DNA of 64,000 nt from Caulobacteraceae bacterium (GTDB lineage Bacteria; Pseudomonadota; Alphaproteobacteria; Caulobacterales; Caulobacteraceae): NCBI GenBank assembly GCA_947475875.1, contig CANJME010000004.1, positions 1 through 64,000 of the forward strand. The letters run 5' to 3'. Below the pieces are notes generated by a model, which saw only the letters and a program-made list of their open reading frames with translations, was not told where the DNA came from and did no database searches. The position numbers and the translations under genes were made by a program. Below are positions 35,214 through 62,001 of this stretch, one piece after another (position 1 is the stretch's first letter; each line of letters opens with the position of its first letter).

Positions 35214-35374
35214 GGAAGAGTCCTTTTGGGGCAGGCCGTTGTGCGCCGGTCGGTCTAACAGGGCGCGCTCAAATCGCAATCCATTGCTGCGCCACACACT
35301 GCGGTGATGGACGGCGAGGGGAGGGCCCAGTAGACGATAGAGCTCGCCGCTCGGGCGTTTCAGGTCACCCCAGG

Positions 35375-36226: not shown

Positions 36227-36237
36227 GGACCCCTCGG

Positions 36238-37215: not shown

Positions 37216-37234
37216 GCAAGGCGGGCTCAGGGCG

Positions 37235-38482: not shown

Positions 38483-38483
38483 G

Positions 38484-41853: not shown

Positions 41854-43055
41854 GGCCCCGGCTTGGGGCGCTGCTGACCCACCCCGTGCAGTACTACAGC
41901 CCCTGGCTCAAGGAGCTGGCGAAATCGAGCGATCTGACGGTCTATTACGCCCATCGTCAGACCGCCGAAGGCCAGGCGCGGGCCGGTTTTTCCACCGCCT
42001 TCGACTGGGATGTGCCGCTGCTTGAGGGTTATGAGTGGCGCTGGCTGAACAATATTTCCCGCAACCCCGGGCTGACGACATTCGGGGGCTGCGACACGCC
42101 CGAGATTAGCCAGATCGTTCGCGACGCCAAGCTTGATGCGCTGATGATGTTCGGCTGGAACCGCAAAACCTTTGTGCAAGGCGCCATCGCAGCCTTGCGC
42201 ACCAAAACGCCGCTGCTGATCCGCCTGGACTCCCAGCTGTCGCCCCGCCGGGCCATGTGGAAGCGGATTGTCAAATACCCGTTCTATTCGGCCGTGCTGC
42301 CGCGTCTGGCGCATTATCTGTCGCCCGGGTCGCGGACGGACGAGTATCTGCGGCACTACGGCGTGCCCGCCGATCGTATCCACCGGCTGGCCCACATGAT
42401 CGACACCGACCGGTTCGCCGCCGGCGCCGCGCAGGCGCGCAAGTCGGGCGCCACGCGAACCCTCCGCACCCAGTGGGGCGCTGGCGACAACGATTTTGTC
42501 CTGCTGTTCGTCGGCAAGCTCATCGAACGCAAGCGCATCGATCTGATCCTTGAGGCCCTGCGCATCCTGCGCACTCAAGATCCCGAAGCGTTCGCAAGGA
42601 CTAAATTCTGGATAGCGGGCGACGGGCCCTTGAGGGTTAGCTTTGAGGCCTTCGTCAAGACACATGCTTTGCCGGTGTCCTTCCTCGGCTTTCTCAACCA
42701 GAGCCACCTGCCAGGGACCTATCCGTCCGCGGACTGCGTGATCCTCACCTCAAGCGACGACACCTGGGGGCTGATTGTGAACGAGGCCTTTGCTTGTGGT
42801 GTTCCGGCCATTGTTGCCAACGGCGTGGGTTGCGCGCCCGAACTCATTGAAGACGACGTTACGGGCTGGACGCTTTACGGCGACAGTCCGGGCGAGCTGG
42901 CCGCGATCATCGCCAAGGCGTCGAGGATGGTCAGCGCCCTCGCCAGAACGCGAATCTCCGTGGTAAGCGATGCTGCCAGTTATTCGCCCGGGGTGGACCG
43001 GATGCTGGAGATCGTTGAGCAAGTGCGCACGCCGACCAGTACGGGACCGCAATGA
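41850..43055 (+). CDS. GT4-type glycosyltransferase D
   Basis: A 401-residue GT-B protein. The opening is RLGALLTHPVQYYSPWLKEL, then RLDSQLSPRRAMWK. The C-terminal domain has LLFVGKLIERKRIDLILEAL, FWIAGDGPLR and DDTWGLIVNEAFACGVPAIV, the latter with the E-x7-E type donor site. ATGA coupling joins it to the sulfotransferase before it and to the membrane protein after it. The five residues that could be added at the front overlap the sulfotransferase gene. Confidence 0.88.
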   Translation: MRPRLGALLTHPVQYYSPWLKELAKSSDLTVYYAHRQTAEGQARAGFSTAFDWDVPLLEGYEWRWLNNISRNPGLTTFGGCDTPEISQIVRDAKLDALMMFGWNRKTFVQGAIAALRTKTPLLIRLDSQLSPRRAMWKRIVKYPFYSAVLPRLAHYLSPGSRTDEYLRHYGVPADRIHRLAHMIDTDRFAAGAAQARKSGATRTLRTQWGAGDNDFVLLFVGKLIERKRIDLILEALRILRTQDPEAFARTKFWIAGDGPLRVSFEAFVKTHALPVSFLGFLNQSHLPGTYPSADCVILTSSDDTWGLIVNEAFACGVPAIVANGVGCAPELIEDDVTGWTLYGDSPGELAAIIAKASRMVSALARTRISVVSDAASYSPGVDRMLEIVEQVRTPTSTGPQ

Positions 43056-44587
43056 CTATCGAATTCGGCAAACTTCGGTCAGCGGGGCCTGCGAACGGTG
43101 TGAATACCAGGGGCCTTCCGGCTGCCGACGTCAAAGTGATCAAGGGATACGGACACCTGATCTGGTGGCCCTTTGCTCTGGTGATCATTGCTCTCGGTCT
43201 GCTATCGCGAGATTCTCTGCTGATCGTCACCTCTTCCGCCTTCGCCATTTCGATGGCCTGGCTGGGGGTAAGGGTCCCCTATCTGACCTTCGCGTGTTTT
43301 TACCAAGCCATGATCGGCATGTGCGGAGGCGCCTATCTTGGCGCCTATGGGCGTTACCCTGGCGGGGTGGCGGACAATGAGCTCGTCCCGCTGGCGCTGG
43401 CCTACCTGCAACTGACGCTCTTCGTCGTTACGTTCGTCTACTGGCTGATTGCCCGACGGGACACGCCAGGCGATCCCCGGATGGGCCAGAGCCAGCGTGT
43501 ATTGCGCCTAAGTCCAAACCAGCTGTTCGTACTACTGCTGGTCCTGTTTGTTCCTGAGTGGCTTAAGTTGCCCCTTCAGCCTTCAAGTACGGGCGGATTC
43601 CGGCAGATTGCGCTCCACTTGGTGAATTTTCGATACGTCTTGTTCGGACTGTTTGTAATAAACGCCCTCCGGGTCAACAAGAAAAAGATATATTATCTAT
43701 TGATAGCCATCTCTCTATACATTTCTTTGCCGTTGTCTGTTACGGGTTCTGCAGACTGGTCAAGTATAGCCGTGATATTGCTCATGTACGCGGCCGGAGC
43801 GTTGGTGTTTTCATCCGTGAAAGGCGGCGTGCGACTGTCACCAGCCATCATGGCCGCCTGCGTAGCTGCCGTCGTATTCTTGGGCGGCTTTGGGTTGATA
43901 TGGGAAGGTGGGATGAAACTGGCCTGGCGCACGACGCTCAACACGGGCGGCGGCGGCGGATCAATGGTCTCCAACATCTCTATGTTCGCTGACGAAACTC
44001 AGGAGGTGATTAGGAATTTCGACTTGTCATACAGCCTCGAACAATTGACCTCCCGGATGTCCTCGGGCGAGGGGTTCTCGTCGCTGGTGCTGAGAAACGT
44101 TCCCAAATCGATCCCGTACGCAAACGGTGAGCGAATCATGTCGGCCTTGCAGAATCTTGTTCCTAGAATTCTGTTTCCCAACAAGCAGGACCTGGGCGGC
44201 GATTCCTGGCTCGTGCGCAAGTATGCCAACATCGTGGCGGCCGGCGATGAATCCGGCACCTCGATCGGCCTGGGGTACGTGTCGGAACTCTACGTAGATT
44301 TCGGGATGTTCGGCATCATTGGGGGGGCTGCCATGATCGGATCGATCTTCGCTGGAGGCGTGCTGCTCCTTCGGCGTTTTGCGGGTGGAGGAGATATTGC
44401 CGCAGCATCGCTGGTAACAATGCTATTCGCGGTATTCGCGACGCCAGATGCCAGTTTGACTAAAATGATTTCTTCAATTGTATTCGGTCTTATGGTATTC
44501 ACTGTTACGGGTTATTTGAGTTATAGGTATCTTTACATAAGATACGCACCGAATGCGGGTGCCTCTTCCCGTTCTAAGCAGGTCTGA
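43052..44587 (+). CDS. Polytopic membrane protein, candidate Wzy O-antigen/exopolysaccharide polymerase
   Basis: A 511-residue protein with ten or more predicted membrane segments and one large extracytoplasmic loop between about residues 290 and 400, the shape expected of a Wzy polymerase. The loop contains RMSSGEGFSSLVLRNVPKSI and PRILFPNKQDLGGDSW, and polymerase-like charged residues. Wzy proteins are so variable that no sequence motif proves it; the call rests on topology, size, position among glycosyltransferases and the presence of a flippase in the locus. Its middle and 3-prime parts are clearly richer in A/T than the neighbouring genes. Confidence 0.72.
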   Translation: MTIEFGKLRSAGPANGVNTRGLPAADVKVIKGYGHLIWWPFALVIIALGLLSRDSLLIVTSSAFAISMAWLGVRVPYLTFACFYQAMIGMCGGAYLGAYGRYPGGVADNELVPLALAYLQLTLFVVTFVYWLIARRDTPGDPRMGQSQRVLRLSPNQLFVLLLVLFVPEWLKLPLQPSSTGGFRQIALHLVNFRYVLFGLFVINALRVNKKKIYYLLIAISLYISLPLSVTGSADWSSIAVILLMYAAGALVFSSVKGGVRLSPAIMAACVAAVVFLGGFGLIWEGGMKLAWRTTLNTGGGGGSMVSNISMFADETQEVIRNFDLSYSLEQLTSRMSSGEGFSSLVLRNVPKSIPYANGERIMSALQNLVPRILFPNKQDLGGDSWLVRKYANIVAAGDESGTSIGLGYVSELYVDFGMFGIIGGAAMIGSIFAGGVLLLRRFAGGGDIAAASLVTMLFAVFATPDASLTKMISSIVFGLMVFTVTGYLSYRYLYIRYAPNAGASSRSKQV

Positions 44588-44595
44588 ACCCGAGG

Positions 44596-45336
44596 ATGGT
44601 AGCCCGCAACTGGATCGCTGTAGCGCGTATCGCTGCGGACAGGCCGGGTTACGCCGCCAAGTCGCTCTATCGCAAGCTCGTCTCAAAACCTTTTGTCGCG
44701 GTGGAAGGAAAGCCGTTCATCACCGAGCGCGTCGAGGCGTTGAGAGCGGCATTCGCCCACGTCAGTGGTAAGACGCGAGGCCAGACGTTCAAACCCGGAG
44801 CGGTTTCCGAACCGCAGGCCGAACTTCTCTGGCGACTTGTGCGGGATCGACGCCCGGGCAAGGTTGTAGAGACCGGCGTTTGCAACGGCCTTTCGTCAGC
44901 CGTGATCCTGGCCGCTATGGATCTCAACGGGACCGGAGAACTGATATCAGTCGACCTGCCGGAATTCAGCGATCCGGCGCTCAACACAGTCAGCTATTGG
45001 GACGGCAAAGGCGGAGCCGTCATCCCGGCCGGCTGTGAGGTGGGCTGGCTGGCGCCGAAGCAGTACCGCCACAGGTGGCGTTTGCTTCTGGGTCGTGCGG
45101 ATGAACTGCTGCCTGAAGCCCTTTCGGGCGGATGCGACATCTTCATTCACGATTCTGAGCACTCTTACGAAAACCAGCTGTTTGAATTCAGAGCCGGCTG
45201 GAAGGCCTTGCGAAGCGGCGGGGTTCTGGTGGCGACCGACATCAACTGGTCAGACGCGTTCGATGAGTTCTGCCGGGAAGCGCGGCCTAAAAAGCAGTTC
45301 GTCGATCACAGCTGTTGTTTGGTTTTCAAACCCTGA
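44596..45336 (+). CDS. Class I SAM-dependent methyltransferase
   Basis: A 246-residue methyltransferase. The SAM-binding part is KVVETGVCNGLSSAVILAAM (near residues 89-108), then ELISVDLPEF, and a DIFIHDSEHSYENQ segment with a conserved Asp/His/Glu group typical of class I enzymes that methylate sugar or cephalosporin-like hydroxyls. It is eight bases after the candidate polymerase gene and ends eight bases before the stop of a convergent methyltransferase gene, closing the plus-strand run that began with the first FkbM gene. Confidence 0.85.
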   Translation: MVARNWIAVARIAADRPGYAAKSLYRKLVSKPFVAVEGKPFITERVEALRAAFAHVSGKTRGQTFKPGAVSEPQAELLWRLVRDRRPGKVVETGVCNGLSSAVILAAMDLNGTGELISVDLPEFSDPALNTVSYWDGKGGAVIPAGCEVGWLAPKQYRHRWRLLLGRADELLPEALSGGCDIFIHDSEHSYENQLFEFRAGWKALRSGGVLVATDINWSDAFDEFCREARPKKQFVDHSCCLVFKP

Positions 45337-45343
45337 GGCCGGC

Positions 45344-46180
45344 CTAGTCCATGTCCAGGGACCAGGGATCGACGATCTGATCGGCCCCGTCGATCCGCTC
45401 CCACCCCGACTGGCGGGCGAAACAACGCGGCAGGCGCGAGGCGGTTTGGCGGTGTTCAATTTTGCGGCCCACCACACAGACGGTTTGGGCGAACTTGTCC
45501 TTCAGATACCGTGATCCCAGGTTCACGACGGGCCGGTACAGGTTCGACAGGCCCGACCGCGTGTAGGGCGACCAATGGCTGGCTTCGAGGATTTCAAAAC
45601 CGCAGGTCTCGACCAGGTCCGCCAGCCCGTCCAGGGTGAAGACGTAGTTGTGGCGGGAATAGACGCAAGGCCGGTAGGCCGGCATCTTGGCCTTCACCCG
45701 GAACGGATTTTCAAGCTGCGAGCCGTTCGGCGTGGTGATGATGACGATGCCGCCGGGCTTCAGCCAGCCATTGATGTTGAGCAGCATGGTGTGAGGCGCG
45801 CGCGTTAGGTGTTCGATGATCTCGCAGGCCAGCACCATGTCGACCGGCTCGTCGATGGGAAACAGGGTCCGCTCGACATTGGCCGAGTAGTTGACGTAGC
45901 CCCGCGGCGCGGCATCGCCAATCTGGAGCTCGTAGTCCTTGCGAGTGACCGGCAGCTCGTCCGACCAGTTCGAGCCGGCCTCCTCGCTGACCGTGGCGCG
46001 CAGATCAACGCCCGGCTCGGCGGCCAGGCGCGAGGTCATCGCCCAGGGCACCCCGCCGACCTCGACGACGCTTCCACCGCCGTAGCGCCGGACCAGGTCC
46101 AGCGTCTTGTCGAACCGTCCGGCATGAAAATTCATGTAGCCGTCGATCGGAAGAAGTTTGCCGTTCACGCGCAGGGTCAT
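45344..46180 (-). CDS. Class I SAM-dependent methyltransferase
   Basis: A 278-residue methyltransferase of the Methyltransf_11/23 type. The glycine loop is VVEVGGVPWAMTSRLAA, an unusual variant of ExGxGxG in which the second and third Gly are replaced; the substrate/cofactor part LACEIIEHLTRAPHTML and the KPGGIVIITTPNG strand are intact. A Cys/His-rich C-terminus follows. I start at MTLRVNG because AGGA lies seven bases before it; two residues longer is possible. It starts eight bases after the stop of the upstream FkbM gene, so the two are co-transcribed. Confidence 0.85.
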   Translation of the reverse strand: MTLRVNGKLLPIDGYMNFHAGRFDKTLDLVRRYGGGSVVEVGGVPWAMTSRLAAEPGVDLRATVSEEAGSNWSDELPVTRKDYELQIGDAAPRGYVNYSANVERTLFPIDEPVDMVLACEIIEHLTRAPHTMLLNINGWLKPGGIVIITTPNGSQLENPFRVKAKMPAYRPCVYSRHNYVFTLDGLADLVETCGFEILEASHWSPYTRSGLSNLYRPVVNLGSRYLKDKFAQTVCVVGRKIEHRQTASRLPRCFARQSGWERIDGADQIVDPWSLDMD

Positions 46181-46188
46181 CGGCATTC

Positions 46189-47133
46189 CTACGGGCGGTC
46201 TGGCCGGCAGATCACCCAGAAGGGGCGCGGATTTTCCCGCGCGTCCATCAGGTCCAGAAACGCTTCCAGGTCATGGACCTCCCGGTACTGCGGCAGGCCC
46301 AAGTACTGGTTGAACACCTTGCGCAGGCGGCTCATCGAAGGATGCTGGTCATAGACCTTCAGATTGCCGTAGCGCTCGCCCAGGAAAGCAACGACGCCCC
46401 GCATGGCCGGCCCGCTCCGCAGCGCGCGGATATGTGACGGATGAACCTCGATGAACAGGGTTGGCTGGTAGGCCTCGATCAGTTTGCGGGCGCCTTCCAG
46501 GGCGAAGAGTTCGTAACCTTCGATATCCATTTTCAGAAAATCGACGGGGCCGGACACCAGATTGTCGAGGGTGTCCAGCCGCACCGTGTAGGCGGCCTCG
46601 TCACCGGCGGCGATGCCGCTGTTGATGCCGGCTTTCAATCCCACCTTCGAGGGTTTGTCGCCGACGGCGCAGTCAATGATCGTCACCCGGTCCGAGAGGT
46701 TGTTGCGCTCAATATTGGCGCGCAGTTCGGGCAGGTTTTCGACCGAGGGCTCGATGGCCGTGATCCGGCCCGCCTCGCCGAGACAGCGGGCGAACATCAG
46801 GCTGTAGTACCCGATGTTGGTGCCCACATCGACGGCGTGCTGGCCAGGCTTCAGCAGCGGCTGGATGAGCGCCAGTTCGTCGATGTAGCGCTCGCCCACC
46901 AGGTAAAGCACGCGCTCTGGCCCTTCACGCGAGACATCACCGACGAAGCTGAACCCAAAGAGGGGCCTAGCGACCAGCGTTCCCGGCTTGACGCTGCGAA
47001 ACAGCCGCCGTCCCCACCGCAAGGCGCCAAAGCGCCAGAAGAAGGCGCCGATCCGGGCGAGGCGCCACGACAGCCGTTCGGGCTCCACCACCGGAGCGCC
47101 AGCGTTTTGCGCAGGACTTGCCGCCAGGGTCAT
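46189..47133 (-). CDS. FkbM family methyltransferase (second of three)
   Basis: A 314-residue FkbM methyltransferase with an extra N-terminal part of about 80 residues before the catalytic domain. The SAM motif is HAVDVGTNIGYYSLMFARCL (about residues 99-118), then ITAIEPSVENL, and the FLKMDIEGYELFALEG signature near 200. Its own promoter must lie in the 152 bases between it and the quinoprotein gene, unless the transcript runs through from the quinoprotein gene. Sugar O-methylation is expected. Confidence 0.88.
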   Translation of the reverse strand: MTLAASPAQNAGAPVVEPERLSWRLARIGAFFWRFGALRWGRRLFRSVKPGTLVARPLFGFSFVGDVSREGPERVLYLVGERYIDELALIQPLLKPGQHAVDVGTNIGYYSLMFARCLGEAGRITAIEPSVENLPELRANIERNNLSDRVTIIDCAVGDKPSKVGLKAGINSGIAAGDEAAYTVRLDTLDNLVSGPVDFLKMDIEGYELFALEGARKLIEAYQPTLFIEVHPSHIRALRSGPAMRGVVAFLGERYGNLKVYDQHPSMSRLRKVFNQYLGLPQYREVHDLEAFLDLMDARENPRPFWVICRPDRP

Positions 47134-47285: not shown

Positions 47286-49700
47286 TCATTTCCTGACCGG
47301 AACGGCGCCGCCCGGGGCGGGCCCCAGGGCGAAGGTGTAGAGCTTTGACGACTGCCGATCGTAGTTGTGGAACTTACCGCCGCTGGCGACCACGGAAAGG
47401 TACTGCACGCCGTTGCTGACAAAGGTTGTCGGCGGCGCGCTGCCGGCGGCCTCCATCTCGTAAGACCAGAGCATCTGCCCGGAGGCGGAATCAAAGGCAT
47501 AGATCCGTCGGTCCGCCGTTCCGGTTGCGAAGACGACGCCCCCGGCGCTGACGATCAGGCCGCCGTAATTCGGCGCCCCGACAGCCTCGAGCTTGCCGCC
47601 GATCTGAACCTGCCCGAACGGTGCGGCCCAGCGATGACGGCCGCTCGTCAGGTCGACCGCCACGATACGCCCCCAGGGCGGTTTCGATCCCGGCCGGCCT
47701 TGCCGGTCGAGCAGTTGGCTCCACATGTAGTTGACGGAAAACCCGCGCGCTTTCAGCACCTGATCGTCCCATTTGGCGAACAGGGCCTTGAACTGATCGA
47801 GCTGGGCCTGGGTGGGCGCCAGGTTGGGCGCCGCATACTTGTGGCGATGACGGAAGTAGCCGGCTTCGAAAAACCGCGCGGTCTCCGGACGAAAGGACAG
47901 GCCATTGAGGGAAGGCACGTAAGCGGTGTCGGCCTCGCCCTCCGAGGTATAGACGCCATTGCGATTAGGTCCGTGGCAGGACTGGCACTCGCGTTCGTAG
48001 GCGGCGAGTTCGGCCGGGCCGGGACGGGCGGCCCCCGATGCGCCGAGATAGAGACGGATTTTCCAGGGGATCTGGTTGACCGGCACATAAAGCACCTGGC
48101 GGGCGTGATCGATCGCCACGCCCGGCCATTCGGCGCCGCCATGAACGCCGTAGGCAATCAGGGTTTCGCCCAGCGCCGGCGGCATGAAGCGGCCATAGCG
48201 GGCGTTCTCGACCTGGAAGGTCACCCAGTCGAAGGAGTCCTTGTCGACCTGCGTCACCTGGGCGGGGTCGAAGGCAATGTCGATCACCGGCTCGGGAAGG
48301 GAGAGATTGGGCTGATAGGCGGCGGTCTGCTCGCCGGGGACCGTCGAGGCCGGCGCCCGTGACAGGGTGTAGTTAAAAACCGGCGCCCCACTGACGCGGT
48401 CCAGCATGATGATGTTGCCCACCTTGGAGGCGGCCACCACCACATCAACCTGACGGCCGCCGACCGTGATGGTCGTCAGAGCCGGAGGCCCGGGGACATC
48501 GTAGTCCCAAAGATCGTGACGAACCTCCTGGAAGGCCCATTTCACCTTGCGCTCCAGGATATCGAACGCGATCAGACTGGATGAGCGGTCGTTGTCGCCC
48601 GGCCGGCTCGCGCCATAGAGGGCGGGCCGAGGATTGCCCGTCGCTAGGAACACGAGGCCCCGGGCCGCATCCAGGGACATACCGCCCCAGACATAGCCGC
48701 CGTCAAAGTTCCGGTCAGCGGGATAAACCTCGATCGTCCAGCGCTGAGCGCCGGTGCGCGCGTCCAGGCCGACCAGGGCTCCGGTCTCACGCTGGCCAAC
48801 AATCAGCACGTCGCCGAAGACGAGCGGAGCGACGCGGGAATCGCCGGCCCGGGCAAAGCCGCCGTCGCCAAAACTCTTCACACGGCGGCCGGTGCGCGCG
48901 TCGATGGCGACGATGTCTTCCCCGATGGAGGCGAAAATGCGCGGACCGACATCGCCCTGACCCGGCCACCAGACGATGCCCCGGCGCGAGATGCTGAACG
49001 GCGATTTGAACACCCAGGCGACGCGGCCGCTGTCGGCCTTGAGCGCCACGATCGCCGCCTCCGGTGTGACCGAATAGACCAGGCCTTCGGCGAAAACGGG
49101 ATTGGCCTCGATCTGCTCCTTGCGCAAACCATTCCAGGCCGGGCCGGACGAGGAATCAAAAACCCACGCCAGGCGAAGCTGCCCCACGTTCGCGGGCGTG
49201 ATCTGCGTGGCCGCCGAATATTTGCTGGAATAGTTGTCGCCGTGAGCCCGCGGCCAGCCGCCGGTCTTGTCGATATCCAGGGCGACCGGCGCGGACGGGC
49301 GCCAGTCCGCCGTCCTGATCAGGCCCGGTATGGTCTGGGTCAGCGGAAGGGCCGCCCGCGCGGCGGCGTCTTCCACCGGACCGCCGGGATAGCTTCCGCC
49401 CACCCCGGCGTTGATGTTGGAGCTGTCCACCGCCGGCCGGCCCATGAGCCGCTCGACCGGTCCAGCCAGGCCGATCGCGGCCAGCTTGGCGCGGATGCGC
49501 GGCCTTTCGAGCACGAACGTGACGTCGTTGCGGACATAGCGCCAGCCGACATACCGGATCGAGCCGATCCTCGAGAGTGAAAAGGGCTGCATCCAGGCGG
49601 CGGCGGCCACGCCGGCTACGAGCGCGCCGAGGAGCACGATCAGGATTATCGAAGGGCGCCGACGGGCTCTTCGAGGCCGTCGTGATCTGATCTCGGCCAT
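47286..49700 (-). CDS. Membrane-anchored PQQ-type quinoprotein with inserted haem c motif
   Basis: An 804-residue protein. One membrane helix (about residues 17-36) anchors it at the N-terminus. Then comes an eight-bladed quinoprotein propeller beginning with WPRAHGDNYSSKYSAATQI and containing tryptophan-docking type segments such as AIDARTGRRVKSFGDGG and WAFQEVRHDLWDYD, the usual PQQ-site Asp included. Unlike standard enzymes, a c-type cytochrome motif ECQSCHGP (Cys572, Cys575, His576) and its surroundings are inserted before the last blades. Expected: periplasmic oxidation of an alcohol or sugar with electrons passing to the inserted haem. It starts two bases after the flippase gene, so it is translated with it. 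The substrate is unknown. Confidence 0.88.
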   Translation of the reverse strand: MAEIRSRRPRRARRRPSIILIVLLGALVAGVAAAAWMQPFSLSRIGSIRYVGWRYVRNDVTFVLERPRIRAKLAAIGLAGPVERLMGRPAVDSSNINAGVGGSYPGGPVEDAAARAALPLTQTIPGLIRTADWRPSAPVALDIDKTGGWPRAHGDNYSSKYSAATQITPANVGQLRLAWVFDSSSGPAWNGLRKEQIEANPVFAEGLVYSVTPEAAIVALKADSGRVAWVFKSPFSISRRGIVWWPGQGDVGPRIFASIGEDIVAIDARTGRRVKSFGDGGFARAGDSRVAPLVFGDVLIVGQRETGALVGLDARTGAQRWTIEVYPADRNFDGGYVWGGMSLDAARGLVFLATGNPRPALYGASRPGDNDRSSSLIAFDILERKVKWAFQEVRHDLWDYDVPGPPALTTITVGGRQVDVVVAASKVGNIIMLDRVSGAPVFNYTLSRAPASTVPGEQTAAYQPNLSLPEPVIDIAFDPAQVTQVDKDSFDWVTFQVENARYGRFMPPALGETLIAYGVHGGAEWPGVAIDHARQVLYVPVNQIPWKIRLYLGASGAARPGPAELAAYERECQSCHGPNRNGVYTSEGEADTAYVPSLNGLSFRPETARFFEAGYFRHRHKYAAPNLAPTQAQLDQFKALFAKWDDQVLKARGFSVNYMWSQLLDRQGRPGSKPPWGRIVAVDLTSGRHRWAAPFGQVQIGGKLEAVGAPNYGGLIVSAGGVVFATGTADRRIYAFDSASGQMLWSYEMEAAGSAPPTTFVSNGVQYLSVVASGGKFHNYDRQSSKLYTFALGPAPGGAVPVRK

Positions 49701-49702
49701 GG

Positions 49703-51271
49703 TCAGGACGAACTCCGGGTTGGCATGAAGCGGGCGATGGTGGTCCTGGCGTGCTCAAGAATCGTCGTGCGCTGCGGGCCCGAAAGAATCCCGAACCAGA
49801 TCCACGCCGCTAGGGCGGGCGGGCCGACGAGGATCCCGAGGACAACCTTGAACTGGGCGGACATCTGCTCGGGGCCGATGGCCAGCTCCAGCAGTTTGAT
49901 CAGGCCAAAGACACAAGCCGCCAGCGCGGCCGAGCGCAGGTGGATGGGCAGCAGCAAGGAGAAAAACCCTATGCCAAGCCGCACCTGGGCGTTGCGAGCG
50001 GCAATCCAGCCGGTGGTCAGCATCATGGCGATAGTGGTGCTGGCGGCCACTCCGATCAGCCCAAAATATCGGGCCATGAAATAGGTGATGATCACGTTCA
50101 GGACGCCGCAAAGGATCGTCACCCGTCCATAGACCTCGTGTTCGGTCGAACGGTCGGCGTCCATCAACATGCTGGTCTGGGCATTGAGGATCGTGCTGAC
50201 CACAAAGATCGAGACCAGGCCGTAGCCGACGAAATTGCCATCCAGCCACAGGCCGAAGAACGACGAGCCGATCGCCAGCAAGGTCGCGGCGCCAAACCAC
50301 AGGATGGCCATGGCCATCTTGAAGGACAGGGAGATGATCGTTCGAAACGAGCCGACCTGACCGGAGGCCCACGAATGGCTGAGGAACACCATTACGGCTC
50401 CCCCCGTCAGCAGGGCCATTTGAGAGAGCGAGGAAATGACCTGGTAGGTGCCCTGATAGGCCGGCATTTTGCTGGGCCCGAGCATGCTGGCGATGAAGTA
50501 CTGGTCGGTCCGCAGCAGCAGGAAGTTGCCCAGATTGATCATCCAGGCGCTGGCCATAGCGGGAACGAGCGAGCCGACCAGCACCCGGGAAAACGGCTCT
50601 CTGCTCGAGACCCAGCGCGACAACCGCTTTCGGGCGAAGTGGGCGCTAAGCACCCGCCGCGCGATGACAAAAACCGCCGTGACGCTCGCCAGGGCGATGA
50701 CGCCACCGCCCAGGATCACCACGACGAAGCGGAAGACCAGATCGAGGGTCGAGGTGACCATGGTGATGGCCACGTCAACGGCTGCATTGCCGGTAGTAAC
50801 CAGAAACACCGACCAGATCGAACCGCGAATCTGAATGGCCTGACTGACCGCGACGATAGCCCAGCCGATCATGGCGTCGTTTCGGGCGCCTTTCGAAAGC
50901 TCCAGGGTGGAGACGTAGATCAGGCCGCCGATCAGGCTGATCGCCAGCGCAATAAGGCTGCGGGTTTCAAACAGCGTCTTCCCGGTGGAAAACATCTGAC
51001 GCATGCGCTTGTCGAGGAGGCTTTGCCGGCGCTCGCTCTTGGCCACCGTGGTCTTGCCGTAGAGCAATGCAATGCGTCGCCACAGGGTCGGCGTGAGCCC
51101 GAAATCCATCAGACCCAGGAATGGAATGCTGTTGATGACCAGGAACCAGCCGGCCAGTTCCTCCTGGCCCATCATCCGAAAAAGGACGGGCGTGATCAGG
51201 ATGCCCAGCGCCATATTCAAAAGCCGCATGGCGAACGACATGCCGATCGTGTCGAGCATGTTCTTACGCAT
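49703..51271 (-). CDS. Wzx-type flippase of the MOP superfamily
   Basis: A 522-residue membrane protein with about twelve to fourteen hydrophobic segments, beginning with MLDTIGMSFAMRLLNMALGI and LFRMMGQEELAGWFL, the usual opening of polysaccharide flippases. It should turn undecaprenyl-linked repeat units to the periplasmic side. A loop with several basic residues after the third helix is typical. It is the first gene of a minus-strand unit with the quinoprotein, divergent from a glycosyltransferase gene across a 272-base gap. I chose MRKNMLDT as start; MLDTIGMS four residues later is possible. Confidence 0.87.
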   Translation of the reverse strand: MRKNMLDTIGMSFAMRLLNMALGILITPVLFRMMGQEELAGWFLVINSIPFLGLMDFGLTPTLWRRIALLYGKTTVAKSERRQSLLDKRMRQMFSTGKTLFETRSLIALAISLIGGLIYVSTLELSKGARNDAMIGWAIVAVSQAIQIRGSIWSVFLVTTGNAAVDVAITMVTSTLDLVFRFVVVILGGGVIALASVTAVFVIARRVLSAHFARKRLSRWVSSREPFSRVLVGSLVPAMASAWMINLGNFLLLRTDQYFIASMLGPSKMPAYQGTYQVISSLSQMALLTGGAVMVFLSHSWASGQVGSFRTIISLSFKMAMAILWFGAATLLAIGSSFFGLWLDGNFVGYGLVSIFVVSTILNAQTSMLMDADRSTEHEVYGRVTILCGVLNVIITYFMARYFGLIGVAASTTIAMMLTTGWIAARNAQVRLGIGFFSLLLPIHLRSAALAACVFGLIKLLELAIGPEQMSAQFKVVLGILVGPPALAAWIWFGILSGPQRTTILEHARTTIARFMPTRSSS

Positions 51272-51543
51272 GGAGCGTGTGGCCCTGAAGGACGGCTGAG
51301 CTCATCGGACTGGTCTCAAGCCCTCGCGACGAACGGCGAGGGACGCGGCGCCCCAACGCGCGCCAGACTCGACAACTGGATCACGGAATCGCTCCCCCAT
51401 CTTTTCCTTGACGGCTGTTGTGGGTGACTATCAGAAAAGCCCCAATCAAGTCGTCGGGAAACTTTCGCCCTTGCCCCCGCTGCCGCACGCCGCCCGATGA
51501 AATCTCGCCAGGAGAGGGCGTACCGCGCGCGTCGGCGCCGGCG

Positions 51544-52662
51544 ATGACCAAACCCATCCTGTTTTGCGCCACCGGGATCACCCACAGCGTCGGCGGCATT
51601 GCCTCGGCCAACCGCAATGTGCTGGCCGCTCTGCAATCGCTCGCGCAGGAAACCGGCGGCGCGGTCAAGGTGCTGGCCCTGGGAGAGAACACTACGTCCA
51701 AGCCGGACTATCGAACTTTCGGCGGTGACAAGATCAGGTTCGCCCTGGCGGCCGCCCGGGCTGCGCTCACAAGCCGGCTGGTGGTGTTCGATCACGTTCA
51801 GCTGGCGGCGCCTGTCATGGCGCTTCCGGCCTTTTTCCGTCCGCCGGTCGTGATCTGTGCGCACGGATCGGAAGCGACCTGGCGGATCAGGTCATCCAGC
51901 GTGCGCGCCTTTCAGCGGGCGGACCTGGTCCTGACCAATTCCCACTACACCCTGGGGCGGATGGGCGGGTTCGTAGGAACGTTTGCGGGTAGGGCCTGTC
52001 CACTGGGCCTGCCGCCGCAATTCGAGGTCCAGCCTGCGCCGCCCGTGGCCCCTGCCGCGTCGTTGTCGTTCACGGCGGTTGACGGTGAGGTCCGACGGAT
52101 GGGATCGCGCGTTCTGGTGCTGGTTTCACGCATGGACGCGTCTGAGCGTGAAAAGGGTCACCGCGAACTCCTGGGCGTTTTTCCACGCCTGCTGAGCGCC
52201 TTTCCCGATGCGCAGCTCGTGCTGGTCGGATCGGGCAGCGATCTTGAACCTCTGCGGGAGGCTGCCCGGGCTTCATCCGCCGCGACGGGCATCTTCTTGC
52301 CCGGGCGTATGGACGCCCAGGACCTGGAGGAGCTCTATCGCGCGGCTTATGCTTATGTGATGCCGAGCCGGCAGGAGGGTTTCGGTCTGGCCTATCTTGA
52401 AGCCATGAATTTCGCTAAGCCGTGCCTGGCCTGCCGGGACGACGGCGGCGGCGAAGTTGTCGTGGACCAGGAGACGGGTCTGCTGATCCCGCGAGCCTTC
52501 ACCGAGGACGAACTGTTCAGTGCCCTGCAAACCCTGCTGGCCGATCCGGCTCGGGCCCGCGAGTTCGGCGAGGCGGGATGGCGCCGGCTGATCAGTCAGT
52601 ACACCTCCGCCGCCCACCAGCACCGTGTTGAGGCCCTGATCCGCCCGCTGTTGGCCTCATGA
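51544..52662 (+). CDS. GT4-type glycosyltransferase E
   Basis: A 372-residue GT-B protein. The opening ILFCATGITHSVGGIASANR is the acceptor-domain start, followed by PPVVICAHGSEATWR. The donor domain shows VLVLVSRMDASEREKGHREL and PSRQEGFGLAYLEAMNFAKP, with the EGFGLxxxE motif of retaining GT4 enzymes. The frame is open 42 codons upstream, but the ATG at 51544 starts the fold. It overlaps the next gene by ATGA. It is divergent from the flippase gene; the 272-base gap holds one short hairpin (CCCTCGC/GCGAGGG at 51321-51342) and no recognisable operator. Confidence 0.88.
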   Translation: MTKPILFCATGITHSVGGIASANRNVLAALQSLAQETGGAVKVLALGENTTSKPDYRTFGGDKIRFALAAARAALTSRLVVFDHVQLAAPVMALPAFFRPPVVICAHGSEATWRIRSSSVRAFQRADLVLTNSHYTLGRMGGFVGTFAGRACPLGLPPQFEVQPAPPVAPAASLSFTAVDGEVRRMGSRVLVLVSRMDASEREKGHRELLGVFPRLLSAFPDAQLVLVGSGSDLEPLREAARASSAATGIFLPGRMDAQDLEELYRAAYAYVMPSRQEGFGLAYLEAMNFAKPCLACRDDGGGEVVVDQETGLLIPRAFTEDELFSALQTLLADPARAREFGEAGWRRLISQYTSAAHQHRVEALIRPLLAS

Positions 52663-53963
52663 CCTTGCTCGGGACATTGCGCGCGAGCCGGCTACGCTTC
52701 GCGCTGGAGCGCGAGGCGGCAATCTACGCTTCCGAACCCCCGGACCTCGCCTCTTGGCAACTGGTCAGACTAAACGCGGCATGGGCCGGCAGTCTGGAGC
52801 GCTCGCCCTGGGCGCGGGCCATGCGGGCGCGGTTGTCGCTGCCGGCCGTTTTCGAAAGTTGGGACACCGTCGCGAGAGTTCCGGTTCAGACCCGAGCCGA
52901 CATTCGACTCGATATAGCCGCGGCCGGATCGGCGCACGACCCGGTGGCCTGGCGGGCGACGGGTGGCACCACGGCCGAACCATTCCGGTTTCCGGTCTTC
53001 CCGTCGGAGACCCGGGAGGCCGGGCTGGACCAATGGACGGGGCGCGCGCGCCTTGGGATAAGCCCGTCAAACACGCTGTTCATGATCTGGGGACACGCAC
53101 ACCTATTTGGCGTCGGCGTCCGGGGCGCGGTCAACCGTTTAAAGCGAACGCTGTCGGACCGGGCCCTGGGGTATACGCGCTGGAGCGCCTACCGCCTGTC
53201 GCCTGAGGATCTGCATCGCGCGGGCGAGGCGCTGCTCGCCAGCCGGGCGCGTTATGTGATCGGCTATTCTTGCGCCCTCGACCGGTTCGCGCGCGCCAAC
53301 CTCCACCGTGCGGACGAGTTTCGCGCACTGAGCCTCAAGGCGGTGATCGCCACCGCGGAGGGATTTCCCCGCGATGACAGCCGCGAGGCCATCGAGACCT
53401 GTTTCGGTTGTCCGCTCGTCATGGAATACGGCAGCGTCGAGACCGGTGTCATCGCCTATGAGAGGGCCGGGGGACCCTACGATGTCTTCTGGGATCGCCA
53501 TCGGCTGGACCTGGGCGAAGAAACCTCGGCCGGCCGCGCCCTCATCGTGACCAGCCTGAATGTCCGCGCCCTGCCCCTGTTGCGCTATGCGATCGGCGAT
53601 GTCGTCTGGCCGGGCCCTTTCGATCCGGCCCGCCAATTCGAGTCCGTCGGCGGTCGCGTCAATGACGCGATCATCCTGTCAGGTGGCGCGCCCATCCATT
53701 CCGAGGCCTTCACCCACGTGGTTAGGGACTTGAGCGACATTCGCGTCTATCAGATTGTCGGCCATCCGGACGGGGGGATTCCAACGATGCGCTATGAGGC
53801 CGACGATCCTCTTTCCGACGCGATTGTCGCGCGTCTGCGTGATCGATTAGCCCTGATCGATCCGGCGCTTCGTGAGACGGGTATTGAGCGGGTCGACAAG
53901 ATTCCGCTGTCGGTTGCGGGCAAGCACCGCATGGTGGTTCAGCAGCGACCTGACGGCGGATGA
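52659..53963 (+). CDS. CapK/PaaK-like adenylate-forming enzyme
   Basis: A 434-residue protein of the phenylacetate-CoA ligase/CapK group of the ANL superfamily. The phosphate-binding loop is WRATGGTTAEPFRF (near residues 97-110), the A5-like motif is VMEYGSVETGVIAYE, and RYAIGDVVWPG is the A7-like part. In polysaccharide loci such proteins are thought to activate an acid for transfer onto the sugar chain, but the substrate is not known. ATGA coupling joins it to glycosyltransferase E, and the next gene begins almost at its stop. It has no acyl-carrier partner nearby. Confidence 0.83.
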   Translation: MTLLGTLRASRLRFALEREAAIYASEPPDLASWQLVRLNAAWAGSLERSPWARAMRARLSLPAVFESWDTVARVPVQTRADIRLDIAAAGSAHDPVAWRATGGTTAEPFRFPVFPSETREAGLDQWTGRARLGISPSNTLFMIWGHAHLFGVGVRGAVNRLKRTLSDRALGYTRWSAYRLSPEDLHRAGEALLASRARYVIGYSCALDRFARANLHRADEFRALSLKAVIATAEGFPRDDSREAIETCFGCPLVMEYGSVETGVIAYERAGGPYDVFWDRHRLDLGEETSAGRALIVTSLNVRALPLLRYAIGDVVWPGPFDPARQFESVGGRVNDAIILSGGAPIHSEAFTHVVRDLSDIRVYQIVGHPDGGIPTMRYEADDPLSDAIVARLRDRLALIDPALRETGIERVDKIPLSVAGKHRMVVQQRPDGG

Positions 53964-53980
53964 GGGGGCCGGAATCGGCC

Positions 53981-55135
53981 ATGCGAATCATCGAGATCGT
54001 CGCCTCGACCGCCAACCCGTCGCACGGCCCGTCCTATTCGGTCCCCAGACTGGCCAATGCTGTGGCCCGGGCAGGTGCGGATGTCGAACTGTTCACCGTC
54101 GGCGAGCCGGCTCCGGCGGACCCCACCGACGCGAGCGGCCTGCACAGGCGAAGTTTTGCGCATGACCTGGCCTGGGCGCCGCGCATCCAGCATCTGCGAC
54201 TTTCCGGGGCCTTGCGGAACGCTCTGCAGGCCGGCGCCATCGGCGGCGCCCAGGTGCTGCACACCCACGGCCTGTGGCTGGCGCCCAACATCTATCCTGC
54301 CACCGCCGCGCGGGAGGCGGGCCGGGCCTTTGTCGTCTCACCCCGGGGCATGCTGGGCCCGGACGCCCTCAAGTTTTCATCACTGCAGAAAAAGCTCGTC
54401 TGGGCGGCGTTCCAGAAAAAGGCGTTGACCGGCGCCGCCTTTATCCACGCGACCAGCGAGGAGGAGTGCGCCGAGGTGCGCGCGATGGGGCTGACGAACC
54501 CGGTGGTGGTTATCCCCAACGGCGTCGATGTGCCGCCGCTGGCCGCCAAGCCGAAGGACGGCCAGCGCATTGCCTTGTCGCTGGGCCGCATCCACCCGAA
54601 AAAGGGCCTCGACCGTCTGATCCGGGCCTGGGACTTGGCCGGGAAGGCGACTGACAGCTGGCGGCTTTGCATCGTCGGGCCCGACGCGGGCGGCCACACC
54701 GCCGAGCTGAAAGCTCTGGCGGCCGGCCGGGGGCTCGCCAATGTGGAGATATCGGGGCCCGCCTTTGGCGAAGACAAGCTGGCCGCCTACCGCCAGGCCT
54801 CATTGTTCATTCTGCCCACCCTCAATGAGAACTTCGCCCTGACCGTGGCCGAGGCCCTGGCGGCGGGAACGCCGGTGCTGGCGACCAAGGGCGCGCCGTG
54901 GGCGGGGCTGGAGGCCGAGCGCTGTGGCTGGTGGATCGATCATGGTGAGCCGGTGATGGCGCAGGCTCTGAAGCTTGCGCTCGCGCTCCCGCCGGCCGAA
55001 CTTGCGGGCATGGGAAAACGCGGGCGGGCGTGGATGGAACGGGACTTCAGCTGGGACCATATCGGCCGGCGCATGCTGACGGCCTATAAATGGGCCGTTG
55101 ACGGCGGCGATGCGCCCGAAGAGGTGAGGCTGTGA
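53981..55135 (+). CDS. GT4-type glycosyltransferase F
   Basis: A 384-residue GT-B protein. HTHGLWLAPNIYPATAA and FVVSPRGMLGPDALKF mark the acceptor domain. The donor domain has LSLGRIHPKKGLDRLIRAWD and LPTLNENFALTVAEALAAGT, the standard GT4 motif E-x7-E. An ATG overlapping the previous stop (53960) would add seven residues; I prefer 53981 because a GAGGGGG stretch precedes it and the protein then begins with MRIIEIVAS. The stop overlaps the next gene by GTGA. Confidence 0.87.
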   Translation: MRIIEIVASTANPSHGPSYSVPRLANAVARAGADVELFTVGEPAPADPTDASGLHRRSFAHDLAWAPRIQHLRLSGALRNALQAGAIGGAQVLHTHGLWLAPNIYPATAAREAGRAFVVSPRGMLGPDALKFSSLQKKLVWAAFQKKALTGAAFIHATSEEECAEVRAMGLTNPVVVIPNGVDVPPLAAKPKDGQRIALSLGRIHPKKGLDRLIRAWDLAGKATDSWRLCIVGPDAGGHTAELKALAAGRGLANVEISGPAFGEDKLAAYRQASLFILPTLNENFALTVAEALAAGTPVLATKGAPWAGLEAERCGWWIDHGEPVMAQALKLALALPPAELAGMGKRGRAWMERDFSWDHIGRRMLTAYKWAVDGGDAPEEVRL

Positions 55136-55905
55136 GCGGGCTGGCGGACCAGATCACCGTGATCGTCCTCACGCACAACGAAGAGGATAACATCGCCCGC
55201 ACGCTCGAGCGCCTGACCTGGGCGAAACAGGTGCTGGTGGTCGATTCCGGCAGTACGGACGGAACGCTCTCCATTGTCGCGGGCTATCTCAACGCCGAGG
55301 TGGTCACCCGGCCCTTCGACAGCTTCGCGGGTCAGTGCAATTTCGCGCTGAGCCAGGTGAAAACTCCCTACGTTCTGTCCCTCGACGCCGACTATGTGCT
55401 GAGCGAGGCGCTGGTCGCCGAGATCGGGCGGCTGGAGGAGGAGACCCTGGTGTCCGGCTATCGGGCCGGGTTCATCTACTGCATCTTCGACAAGCCGCTG
55501 CGCGGGACGCTCTATCCGCCGCGCACGGTGCTCTATCGGCGCGACAGGGCCCGTTATGAGGACTTCGGCCACGGCCACGCGGTTCAGATCGAGGGGGCCG
55601 TGCGCGACCTGTCGGGGCGGATTTTTCACGACGACCGCAAGCCAATCTCGCGCTGGTTCGCATCACAACAGACCTACGCCCGGCAGGAAGCGGACTTTCT
55701 GCTGGCCGCGCCGCGCGGGGCGCTGCGCTTTGCCGACAAGGTGCGGCTCGGCATGGTTCTGGCCCCGATCCTGGTGCCGTTGCACACCCTCTTCATCAAG
55801 GGCTGCATCCTCGATGGCCGGGCCGGATGGTTCTATGGGCTGCAGCGTCTGCTGGCCGAGACGATGATCGCCATCGCGCTGCTCGACCGCAAACTTCGTC
55901 CTTGA
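55132..55905 (+). CDS. GT2 family glycosyltransferase, WaaE/KdtX type
   Basis: A 257-residue inverting GT-A enzyme. TVIVLTHNEEDNIARTLERL begins the fold; VVDSGSTDGTLSI and the DxD site in LSLDADYVLS follow. The size and the FGHGHAVQIEG/RWFASQQTYARQEA segments resemble the lipopolysaccharide core glucosyltransferase family (WaaE/KdtX) and related exopolysaccharide enzymes. It starts with GTG, overlapping the stop of glycosyltransferase F. The gene ends 73 bases before the carbamoyltransferase gene. Confidence 0.88.
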   Translation: MSGLADQITVIVLTHNEEDNIARTLERLTWAKQVLVVDSGSTDGTLSIVAGYLNAEVVTRPFDSFAGQCNFALSQVKTPYVLSLDADYVLSEALVAEIGRLEEETLVSGYRAGFIYCIFDKPLRGTLYPPRTVLYRRDRARYEDFGHGHAVQIEGAVRDLSGRIFHDDRKPISRWFASQQTYARQEADFLLAAPRGALRFADKVRLGMVLAPILVPLHTLFIKGCILDGRAGWFYGLQRLLAETMIAIALLDRKLRP

Positions 55906-55978
55906 CCCGCTCGACCGGGCCGCGCGCCTTATGCCATAGGGTCTGGACATTCACGCACAGAGCCAAAGGGGCCTGGAC

Positions 55979-57727
55979 TTGATCATTCTCGGCCTCAACG
56001 CTTTCCACGGCGACGCCTCGGCGGCGCTGGTGCGCGACGGGGTGCTGATTGCCGCGGCCGAGGAAGAGCGCTTTCGCCGCATCAAGCACTGGGCCGGTTT
56101 TCCGAGGCAGGCCATCGACTACTGCCTTGCCGAGGCCGGCGTCACCCTGGCCGATGTCGACGTGGTGGCGGTCAATTCCGATGAGACCGCCCACCGCGGC
56201 GCCAAGATCGCCTATGTCCTGACCCGAAGGCCCGATCCGCGGCTGATCCTCGACCGGCTGAAGAACCGCAAGGCGCGCAAAGGCGTTGTCGAGCACCTGG
56301 CCGAGGCCTTTCCCGGCCAGGCTTTCATGGGCAAGGTCGTGGGCGTCGAGCACCACATGGCGCACCTGTCGTCAGCCTTCCACGTCTCGCCGTTCGCCGA
56401 AGCCGCCGTGATCTCAGTGGACGGGTTCGGGGACTTTTCCAGCGCTGCCTGGGGCATCGGTAAAGGCAGGGACATCACTGTCGACGGCCGGGTGCTGTTT
56501 CCCCACTCGCTGGGGGCGTTCTACCAGGCCATCACCCAGTACCTCGGCTTTCCGCACTATGGCGATGAGTACAAGGTCATGGGCCTGGCGCCCTACGGCC
56601 AGCCAGCGTTCCTTTCCGAGATGCGAAAGATCGTGCGTCTTCAAGGGGATGGCGGGTTCCGGCTGGATCTCTCGTACTTCCGTCACCACCGGGAAAAGAT
56701 CGACTACACCTGGACCGGAGGCTCACCGGAGGTGGGCGACCTTTTCTCGCCGATGCTGGAACAGCTGCTGGGTCCGAGGCGCGACCCCTCTGTTCCCCTC
56801 ACCCAGCGCGACAAGGACATCGCCCGCTCGACCCAGGCCATGTACGAGGAGGCGTTCTTTCACCTCCTCACCGCCGTCCATAAGCGGCATCCGGTCGAGG
56901 CGGTCTGCATCGCCGGCGGCTGTGGCAACAACTCGGTCGCCAACGGCAAGATCCGCCGGCTGACGCCGTTCAACAAGGTCTATGTGCAGTCGGCGGCGGG
57001 CGATGCCGGCGGGGCGATTGGCGCAGCATTCAGCGTGTGGACGGGGAGCGGCGGGGCCCGCGACTTCGTCATGGATCACGCCTACTGGGGTCCCGCGTTC
57101 GGAGAGGACGCCATCGCCGCTCTGCTCAAGTCCCATGCCGCCGAGCTGAAAAGCGCAGGCTGCAAGGTCACGCCAATCAAGGACGAGGCCAAACTCTGTT
57201 CGCGCACGGCAGAGGCGGTGGCGGCGGGCAAGGTCGTCGGCTGGTTCCAGGGGCGGATGGAATGGGGGCCGCGCGCGCTCGGCGCGCGCTCGATCATCGG
57301 CGACCCGCGCCGGGCCGACATGAAGGAAATCCTTAACGCCAAGATCAAGCGGCGAGAGAGCTTCCGGCCGTTCGCGCCGTCGGTGCTGGAAGAGGCAGTG
57401 ATCGACTGGTTCGAGGAAGACGACGCCGTGCCGTTCATGATGCAGGTCTTCCAGATCCGCGAGGCGCGCCGTGCGCAGATTCCCGCCGTCACCCACGCTG
57501 ACGGCTCGGGGCGGCTGCAGACGGTAAGCGCGGCGACTAACCCGCGCTATCACAAGCTGATTTCGGCGTTCCGTGACCAAACCGACGTGCCCATGGTGCT
57601 CAACACCTCGTTCAACGAGAACGAACCGGTGGTCTGCACGCCCGCAGAGGCGCTGGACTGTTTCCTGCGCACAAAGATGGACGTGCTGGTGCTGGGCGAT
57701 AACTACATCGAGCGCGCCGGGGGATGA
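55979..57727 (+). CDS. Carbamoyltransferase (NodU/CmcH family)
   Basis: A 582-residue O-carbamoyltransferase that uses carbamoyl phosphate and ATP to carbamoylate a hydroxyl, here probably on a sugar. The N-terminal Kae1-like domain has EHHMAHLSSAF (His125, His126, His129 as likely metal ligands) and VISVDGFGDFS; the C-terminal YrdC-like domain has WFQGRMEWGPRALGARSI and NTSFNENEPVVCTPAEA. The frame begins with TTG, preceded by AAAGGGG at good spacing; no ATG or GTG is available further in without cutting the fold. Its stop overlaps the next gene start (ATGA). Confidence 0.93.
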   Translation: MIILGLNAFHGDASAALVRDGVLIAAAEEERFRRIKHWAGFPRQAIDYCLAEAGVTLADVDVVAVNSDETAHRGAKIAYVLTRRPDPRLILDRLKNRKARKGVVEHLAEAFPGQAFMGKVVGVEHHMAHLSSAFHVSPFAEAAVISVDGFGDFSSAAWGIGKGRDITVDGRVLFPHSLGAFYQAITQYLGFPHYGDEYKVMGLAPYGQPAFLSEMRKIVRLQGDGGFRLDLSYFRHHREKIDYTWTGGSPEVGDLFSPMLEQLLGPRRDPSVPLTQRDKDIARSTQAMYEEAFFHLLTAVHKRHPVEAVCIAGGCGNNSVANGKIRRLTPFNKVYVQSAAGDAGGAIGAAFSVWTGSGGARDFVMDHAYWGPAFGEDAIAALLKSHAAELKSAGCKVTPIKDEAKLCSRTAEAVAAGKVVGWFQGRMEWGPRALGARSIIGDPRRADMKEILNAKIKRRESFRPFAPSVLEEAVIDWFEEDDAVPFMMQVFQIREARRAQIPAVTHADGSGRLQTVSAATNPRYHKLISAFRDQTDVPMVLNTSFNENEPVVCTPAEALDCFLRTKMDVLVLGDNYIERAGG

Positions 57728-58524: not shown

Positions 58525-58534
58525 TCGCGAGACG

Positions 58535-59662: not shown

Positions 59663-59808
59663 GTGGCTCCCCCATCCAGCAATCCGGCATGACCAATTTT
59701 CAACGGCCGCACAAGGTGGGATGACTTGCGCACCAGACATTTTGAGCCCTTGGCCAACCGCTATATAGGCAGGCCCTGCAAAGCTGGGACGGACTTCAGG
59801 CGGGTGCG

Positions 59809-61937: not shown

Positions 61938-62001
61938 ACTCGCCGGCCGTTCCCGGTAATCGGGCCACGGCTTTGGTTTGGTTTGAAAAAAAGGGGGACG
62001 C

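Follow-up and report, generated by a model that had tools for sequence, protein, structure and literature searches.

Known quinohaemoprotein alcohol dehydrogenases (types II and III) combine a quinone and a haem c in one chain, with the haem c at the C-terminus and with a vicinal disulfide, and the membrane-bound glucose/quinate/shikimate dehydrogenase Gcd of Escherichia coli has five N-terminal membrane helices. The protein described here is a quinoprotein with an inserted haem c motif, encoded in a 64-kb stretch of DNA from a Caulobacteraceae bacterium (contig CANJME010000004.1, positions 1 to 64,000, or G000:C4:1-64000 of the 2.85-Mb host genome; "the window" below means this whole stretch), where its gene follows that of a Wzx-like flippase within a polysaccharide cluster. 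It falls in a tree-supported clade in which an invariant histidine stands in place of the distal methionine of the haem insert, and this is what is new here. In the reading that we favour, although with slightly less than even confidence, the protein would be a membrane-anchored periplasmic quinohaemoprotein and an optional accessory of the polysaccharide locus, with the exported glycan or its precursor as the likeliest substrate.

Architecture of the quinoprotein

The flippase and the quinoprotein are read from the minus strand in that order, and both open reading frames (ORFs) are intact:

49703 to 51271, minus strand: Wzx-like flippase, 522 aa, stop codon 2 nt before the quinoprotein ATG (NF041503)
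47286 to 49700, minus strand: quinohaemoprotein, 804 aa (ORF listing, PF01011 and structure model)
47973 to 47987, minus strand: the five codons for CQSCH (residues 572-576), coordinates counted from the ORF start
47841 to 47843, minus strand: codon of His620, which all clade rows have where Met is usual, coordinates counted from the ORF start

An earlier note on this DNA had the quinoprotein begin two bases past the flippase stop, and this holds, with the ATG at 49698-49700 and the stop at 49703-49705. From the 2-nt spacing we infer a single transcript for the two genes, and the quinoprotein is probably co-translated with the flippase; promoter and terminator scans around the pair gave results at chance level.

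The membrane anchor and the propeller of alcohol/sugar dehydrogenases, both described in that note, were likewise borne out. The protein consists of a membrane helix at about residues 16-36, a linker, and a propeller at about residues 140-796 that contains a cytochrome-c-like insert (about 555-653) with CQSCH and H620. Its one hydrophobic stretch covers about residues 14-40, where the model has the N-terminal helix 16-36, of membrane length, and the pyrroloquinoline quinone (PQQ) propeller family PF01011 of Pfam matches the protein with 404.7 bits (cut-off 26.7, E 1e-120). The predicted structure has a mean pLDDT (predicted local distance difference test) of 87.7 and a pTM (predicted template modelling score) of 0.88, and its residues 140-796 align with PQQ-dependent alcohol, methanol and sorbose dehydrogenases at Z ~33-35, with a root mean square deviation of 2.2-2.8 over 435-476 residues.

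CQSCH, which the note had read as an inserted haem c motif, is the single CxxCH of the protein, and C572 and C575 are the only cysteines among its 804 residues. In the model the motif is carried by a helical insert (helices 562-571, 573-576, 590-593, 607-610, 613-619 and 631-650) that sits between propeller strands 546-554 and 654-662, before the last blade; a Pfam scan reported no cytochrome family for the protein at E<=1e-3. Every one of the 45 rows of alignment A2, the window among them, has C572, C575 and H576; the loci in A2 were partly picked by a pattern containing CxSCHG. Chance or artefact as the source of the motif was rejected because neither ORF is interrupted, the protein has no cysteines beyond those of the motif, and the homologues retain the motif.

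A histidine in place of the distal methionine

Relatives were collected by an alignment scan of genome_contigs, of which the best 80 loci form the sample from which the clade and control counts are drawn; CxxCH is present in 78 of these 80, the selection pattern having contained CxSCHG. A family-wide search of 199 genomes gave 13 matches at E<=1e-60, the host included, and the other 12, at 33-39% identity, all have a CxxCH that aligns with CQSCH. So do all 69 rows of the related quinoproteins that keep the distal methionine (Met-type, as opposed to the His-type of the clade). The inserted haem by itself is thus ordinary, and we rejected it as the novelty because many other quinoproteins have CxxCH at the same insertion point.

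A tree of 92 rows places the window inside a 20-row clade with a support of 99, although the method was a quick one, the window sits on a long branch, the composition is uneven, and four of 96 rows (<580 aa) had been dropped beforehand. The members come from SAR11 and other alphaproteobacteria, Gemmatimonas (Gemmatimonadota), a betaproteobacterium, Methylocapsa, Nitrospinaceae and a Flavobacteriaceae bin. Plain identity to the window protein in A2 does not separate the groups (29-41% for clade rows, 30-39% for the 23 outside rows). The clade loci counted below number 22: the 19 tree rows besides the window, and L049, L055 and L084, which did not have the length needed for the tree and were placed in the clade by similarity. 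Three more loci absent from the tree, L143, L144 and L153, were added to the clade for their 60-88% identity to L050 or L062, and the haem-less L123 and L126 were excluded from both the clade and the control groups.

All 22 clade rows of A2 have His in the column of residue 620 and none has the Met three columns on, whereas column 623 is Met in each of the 23 non-clade rows. With the rows added to A2 (His in L084, L143, L144 and L153, Met in 46 further non-clade rows) the split extends to 26 clade rows, every one with His at column 620, and 69 others, every one with Met at column 623. The window protein has His at 620 and Ala at 623, and so does not have the distal Met of related quinohaemoproteins. 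Because His620 is invariant and the Met at 623 is replaced, the second axial haem ligand in this clade is probably histidine, giving His/His ligation. The clade is a clean natural case in which His has replaced Met in the haem domain of a quinoprotein, by which redox tuning becomes testable whatever the substrate, and it apparently represents an undescribed branch of quinoproteins of the sugar/alcohol-oxidising type, marked by an unusual haem pocket. It also offers a lead on the quinoproteins present in SAR11 genomes, even if glycan is not the substrate.

This type of quinoprotein is rare. The host and G570 alone match at E<=1e-85 in a class-wide search of 385 genomes, and ten of the 197 genomes in the family of G570 match at this threshold, six with CxxCH and four without. 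At E<=1e-110 the L062 protein as query found one of 398 genomes of the phylum (host) and two of the 309 in the family of L062, and the L050 protein found five of the 316 genomes in the phylum of L050. A single-protein scan of genome_contigs found no relative. Viral carriage was rejected, as none of the 23 pattern matches in viral_contigs was a relative by tblastn; among plasmids 569 records match, and the 15 listed have 27-33% identity.

A second type of quinoprotein was observed in SAR11, of ~670-700 aa and without CxxCH (L041, L042, L043, L044, L123 and L126), with two adjacent haem-less copies on opposite strands in L041. The quinoprotein gene of L084 (G1128:C46:31671-33968, a Gemmatimonadota bin) has one in-frame TGA.

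Active site and PQQ supply

All 45 rows of A2 have Trp338, Lys426, Asp396, Trp398 and Trp525, and 43 of them, the window included, have Asp399. W338, D399 and K426 align with W404, D466 and K493 of E. coli Gcd, through which we take D399 to be the catalytic Asp, K426 the PQQ-contacting Lys and W338 the stacking Trp. Given the predicted fold and these conserved residues, the protein is likely to be a PQQ-type quinohaemoprotein dehydrogenase.

The same residues argue against the rival view, which we consider improbable, that the propeller no longer carries out PQQ catalysis and, with its haem, acts where polysaccharide is exported as a scaffold, sensor or assembly factor. Several features nevertheless lean towards it, as Asp399 is Asn in two clade members, Glu524 is kept in just 8 of 22 clade rows, and H262, D354 and N607 of Gcd have no equal residue in the window protein. 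The NCBIfam model 'acido-empty-quinoprotein group A' matches the protein with 171 bits, under its cut-off of 650, and BamB propellers also align to the model, at a lower Z of ~27-28. PQQ synthesis, sought through TIGR02111 and TIGR02109, is a further point in favour of such a scaffold: the host genome has no match for PqqC (TIGR02111, a search that works, with 3 of 149 family genomes over the cut-off) and no PqqE over the cut-off (TIGR02109, a search without positive control). PQQ would therefore have to be taken up from outside. That this need not prevent catalysis is indicated by E. coli, which does not synthesise PQQ but makes Gcd as an apo-enzyme that becomes active once the cofactor is supplied.

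The host has a CcmF-like cytochrome-maturation gene at 549 bits, just below the cut-off of 569. Its genome contains 17 matched quinoprotein-like stretches, which we group into about ten reading frames.

Gene neighbourhoods of the clade

A survey of the neighbourhoods of homologues with CxxCH in the propeller, proposed in the earlier note, gave a divided answer. Glycan-synthesis genes were detected within ~10 kb at 9 of the 22 clade loci and at 2 of 56 loci of related quinohaemoproteins outside the clade (p ~1e-4, which is only indicative since the rows are related and several contigs are short); the seed test found no glycan core gene at the other 13, some of which have short flanks. The core-gene seeds were taken solely from the window and the wca/rfb region of E. 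coli, and gave a raw count of 10/22 against 2/56; the hit in L060, a Mrp/MinD-like ATPase by reading, was dropped, and the PCP hit in L114 may be alike, but L114 has GT2 hits. A previous count of 8/22 against 1/56 is not relied on, as its seeds came partly from the clade's own loci. Glycan genes accompany the clade more often than they do related proteins, though far from universally.

Four loci (L050, L051, L062 and L084) have glycosyltransferases plus Wzz, MBOAT, UDP-sugar dehydrogenase, exosortase, Bac_transf, FkbM or acyltransferase genes, and in L056 an O-antigen-ligase-type gene and a PMT_2 gene adjoin the quinoprotein. Among the loci fetched later, the His-type L143 and L144, close kin of L050 (88% and 66% identity), lie among glycan genes and the Met-type L145 does not. 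A Methyltransf_24 gene is directly downstream of the quinoprotein in each of six alphaproteobacterial loci (L049, L052, L053, L054, L063 and L102), followed by a weakly GT8-like gene (four reach E<=1e-3, best 2e-4), with genes overlapping by 1 nt or 6-7 nt apart. In pooled Pfam scans, which are qualitative and took two genes per side for the clade and one for the controls, the clade neighbours (81 of 83, two L062 entries being left out) include GT2 3, GT8 4, GT4 2, Methyltransf_24 6, HisG 4 and histidinol dehydrogenase 5, and the control neighbours (105 of 107, without two L117 entries) include TonB 5, cytochrome c 5 and Glyco_tranf_2_5 2.

The placement beside a flippase, on which the earlier note had built its proposal, is true of the window, where the pair lies in a polysaccharide cluster, and does not extend to the relatives: for all 22 the Wzx seeds detected no such gene in the flanks that were fetched, although they do detect flippases elsewhere. 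Flippase adjacency as a rule of the clade was therefore rejected, the direct pairing being seen in the window only. At longer range a PF01943 flippase shares the contig with the quinoprotein in L062, L084 and L050, at distances of 13, 24 and 32 kb; the Wzx seeds find it in all three cases, and in the L084 and L050 genomes it is the only PF01943 match. PF01943 occurs in 11 of 22 clade genomes; the placement on contigs was checked in these three, and the distances come from clade loci alone.

The uneven link leaves room for a respiratory dehydrogenase that acts on a small alcohol, sugar or polyol, has nothing to do with the polymer, and is carried as cargo because gene gain and loss are frequent in variable surface-polysaccharide islands such as this one. 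We give this explanation substantial weight, though well short of an even chance. It accommodates the His-type L153, which has no glycan gene detected within ~30 kb, and the SAR11 copies that occur singly with housekeeping genes around them. Of the SAR11-type copies, seven, including one without haem, adjoin genes that read as CinA-like or gamma-glutamylcyclotransferase-like, and in some of these a glycosyltransferase is a few kb away. Gene-gain hot spots could yield part of the glycan-gene enrichment. The TonB receptors and cytochromes among the Met-type control neighbours (5 of 105 each) also fit small-molecule use in the wider family. Less easily explained as mere cargo are the higher frequency of glycan genes near the His-type clade across Gemmatimonadota, a betaproteobacterium and alphaproteobacteria, and the tight spacing with the flippase in the window and with the methyltransferase and weakly GT8-like genes in the six other loci.

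The SAR11 loci L037, L039, L040, L044, L057, L061 and L078 have haem-containing or haem-less quinoproteins beside genes that read as CinA-like, NAD-kinase-like or gamma-glutamylcyclotransferase-like, a recurrent position that looks like an insertion hot spot. The copy of the SAR11 strain HIMB114 lies ~6 kb from the 23S rRNA, in the position of HVR2. In another SAR11 strain HVR2 is described as consisting mainly of cell-surface genes (PMC2217521).

The polysaccharide cluster and its counterpart in a sister genome

The pair in the window is embedded in the following genes; for the left and right parts the profile scan covered part of the genes, and some names are by reading:

33906 to 45336: left part of the cluster, with UDP-sugar dehydrogenase, FkbM-like, NDP-sugar epimerase, glycosyltransferase, sulfotransferase, Wzy-like and Methyltransf_24 genes
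43052 to 44587, plus strand: Wzy-like polymerase candidate (PF14296 at 22.6 bits, cut-off 26.6, and NF046084, both under cut-off)
45344 to 46186, minus strand: class I methyltransferase, last of the minus-strand run, with a 2-nt gap to the FkbM gene
46189 to 47133, minus strand: FkbM-type methyltransferase, next gene downstream of the quinoprotein after a 152-nt gap
51538 to 62973: right part of the cluster, with GT4-like, CoA-ligase-like, GT2, carbamoyltransferase, FkbM-like methyltransferase, acyltransferase 3 and SDR genes

The glycosyltransferases around the pair (GT4 and GT2) are clear, and the Wzx-like and Wzy-like matches are both below cut-off. The flippase scores 101 bits with NF041503, 'O-unit flippase-like protein', below the curated cut-off of 300, and has no Pfam family at E<=1e-3.

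The genus set comprises three genomes, of which G015 has a matching cluster (20 kb fetched), with the flippase at 62%, the Wzy-like protein at 56% and the UDP-sugar dehydrogenase at 88% identity. There is no quinoprotein in this cluster, and none elsewhere in the G015 genome matches at E<=1e-60; the quinoprotein gene is therefore an optional part of the locus, and its absence from this cluster also speaks for the small-molecule cargo explanation. The counterpart of the downstream FkbM gene is missing from the stretch as well, the homologue of the class I methyltransferase has moved elsewhere within the cluster, and the homologues of the methyltransferase at 44596-45336 and of the flippase end ~20 nt apart. 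No flippase homologue was found in the third genome, G030.

Two further features of the window were observed. A GSDH-family (glucose/sorbosone dehydrogenase-like) protein is encoded at 32559-33866 (minus strand), and a gap of 39 nt separates its gene from that of the UDP-sugar dehydrogenase with which the cluster begins on the left; in L057 the haem quinoprotein is flanked by two GSDH-family proteins. The acyltransferase gene at 58535-59740 (minus strand) has a G+C content of 0.495, against 0.66-0.67 in the genes either side, and may have been acquired recently.

Proposed function

In our preferred reading the propeller would hold scavenged PQQ and a metal and oxidise a hydroxyl, and the electrons would go from PQQ to the inserted haem c, probably His/His-ligated in the clade, and then presumably to a respiratory acceptor, with the enzyme working on the periplasmic side. 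The gene would serve in this genome as an optional accessory of a Wzx/Wzy-like polysaccharide locus, and the hydroxyl oxidised would most likely belong to the exported glycan, or else to a sugar or substituent that is to become part of it. The glycan is the least certain part of this reading. Because the link with glycan genes is not universal and the pairing with the flippase is a single case, the polymer is only the leading idea, a plausible one, and a small-molecule dehydrogenase in variable islands is nearly as likely. Weighing against the reading are the 13 clade loci at which the seed test found no glycan core gene and L153, the flanks in which no Wzx-like gene was detected, the sister cluster without the quinoprotein, the Asn at position 399 in two members, and, in the host, the lack of a PqqC match and of a PqqE over the cut-off.

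A wider proposal, which we regard as rather unlikely, is a dedicated glycan-oxidation module in the periplasm, in which a quinohaemoprotein with a His/His haem would oxidise a hydroxyl of the repeat unit during or after its delivery by the flippase and pass the electrons to the respiratory chain; its gene would have spread as an optional decoration gene across surface-polysaccharide loci of unrelated bacteria, including the abundant SAR11. If glycan is the substrate, respiration-linked oxidation could chemically alter surface polysaccharides beyond the cytoplasm, and the literature searched showed no such step.

Comparison with known systems

The literature search, which covered titles and the beginnings of abstracts and had most subscription papers outside its reach, returned no quinoprotein acting in polysaccharide export. 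Within the clade, the context can be compared with that of the HIMB114 quinoprotein (L024/L059), which has 34-36% identity and lies among sugar genes in a stretch bounded by the 23S rRNA; unlike in the window, no flippase was detected beside it, and UDP-galactopyranose mutase-like and PfkB-type genes are near.

Outside the clade, Met-type quinoproteins, annotated for instance as 'pyrroloquinoline quinone-dependent dehydrogenase', have the same propeller and the same CxxCH insertion point before the last blade, and their identity to the window protein (30-39% in 23 rows) is no lower than that of most clade rows. They differ in keeping the distal Met (69 of 69, against 0 of 26 clade rows) and in having fewer glycan genes nearby (2/56).

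E. coli Gcd shares the active-site columns D466, W404 and K493 with the window protein, which scores 264.8 bits with TIGR03074, below the curated cut-off of 832.65, and has one membrane helix and a haem c insert where Gcd has five N-terminal helices. The quinohaemoprotein alcohol dehydrogenases 1kb0, 1kv9, 1yiq and 8gy2 align with the propeller at Z ~33-34, the aligned propeller ending at residue 554-570 of 664-684 in 1kb0, 1kv9 and 1yiq. In the window protein the haem is inserted and not C-terminal, and both cysteines are in CQSCH, so that the protein shares the propeller of types II and III and falls outside both.

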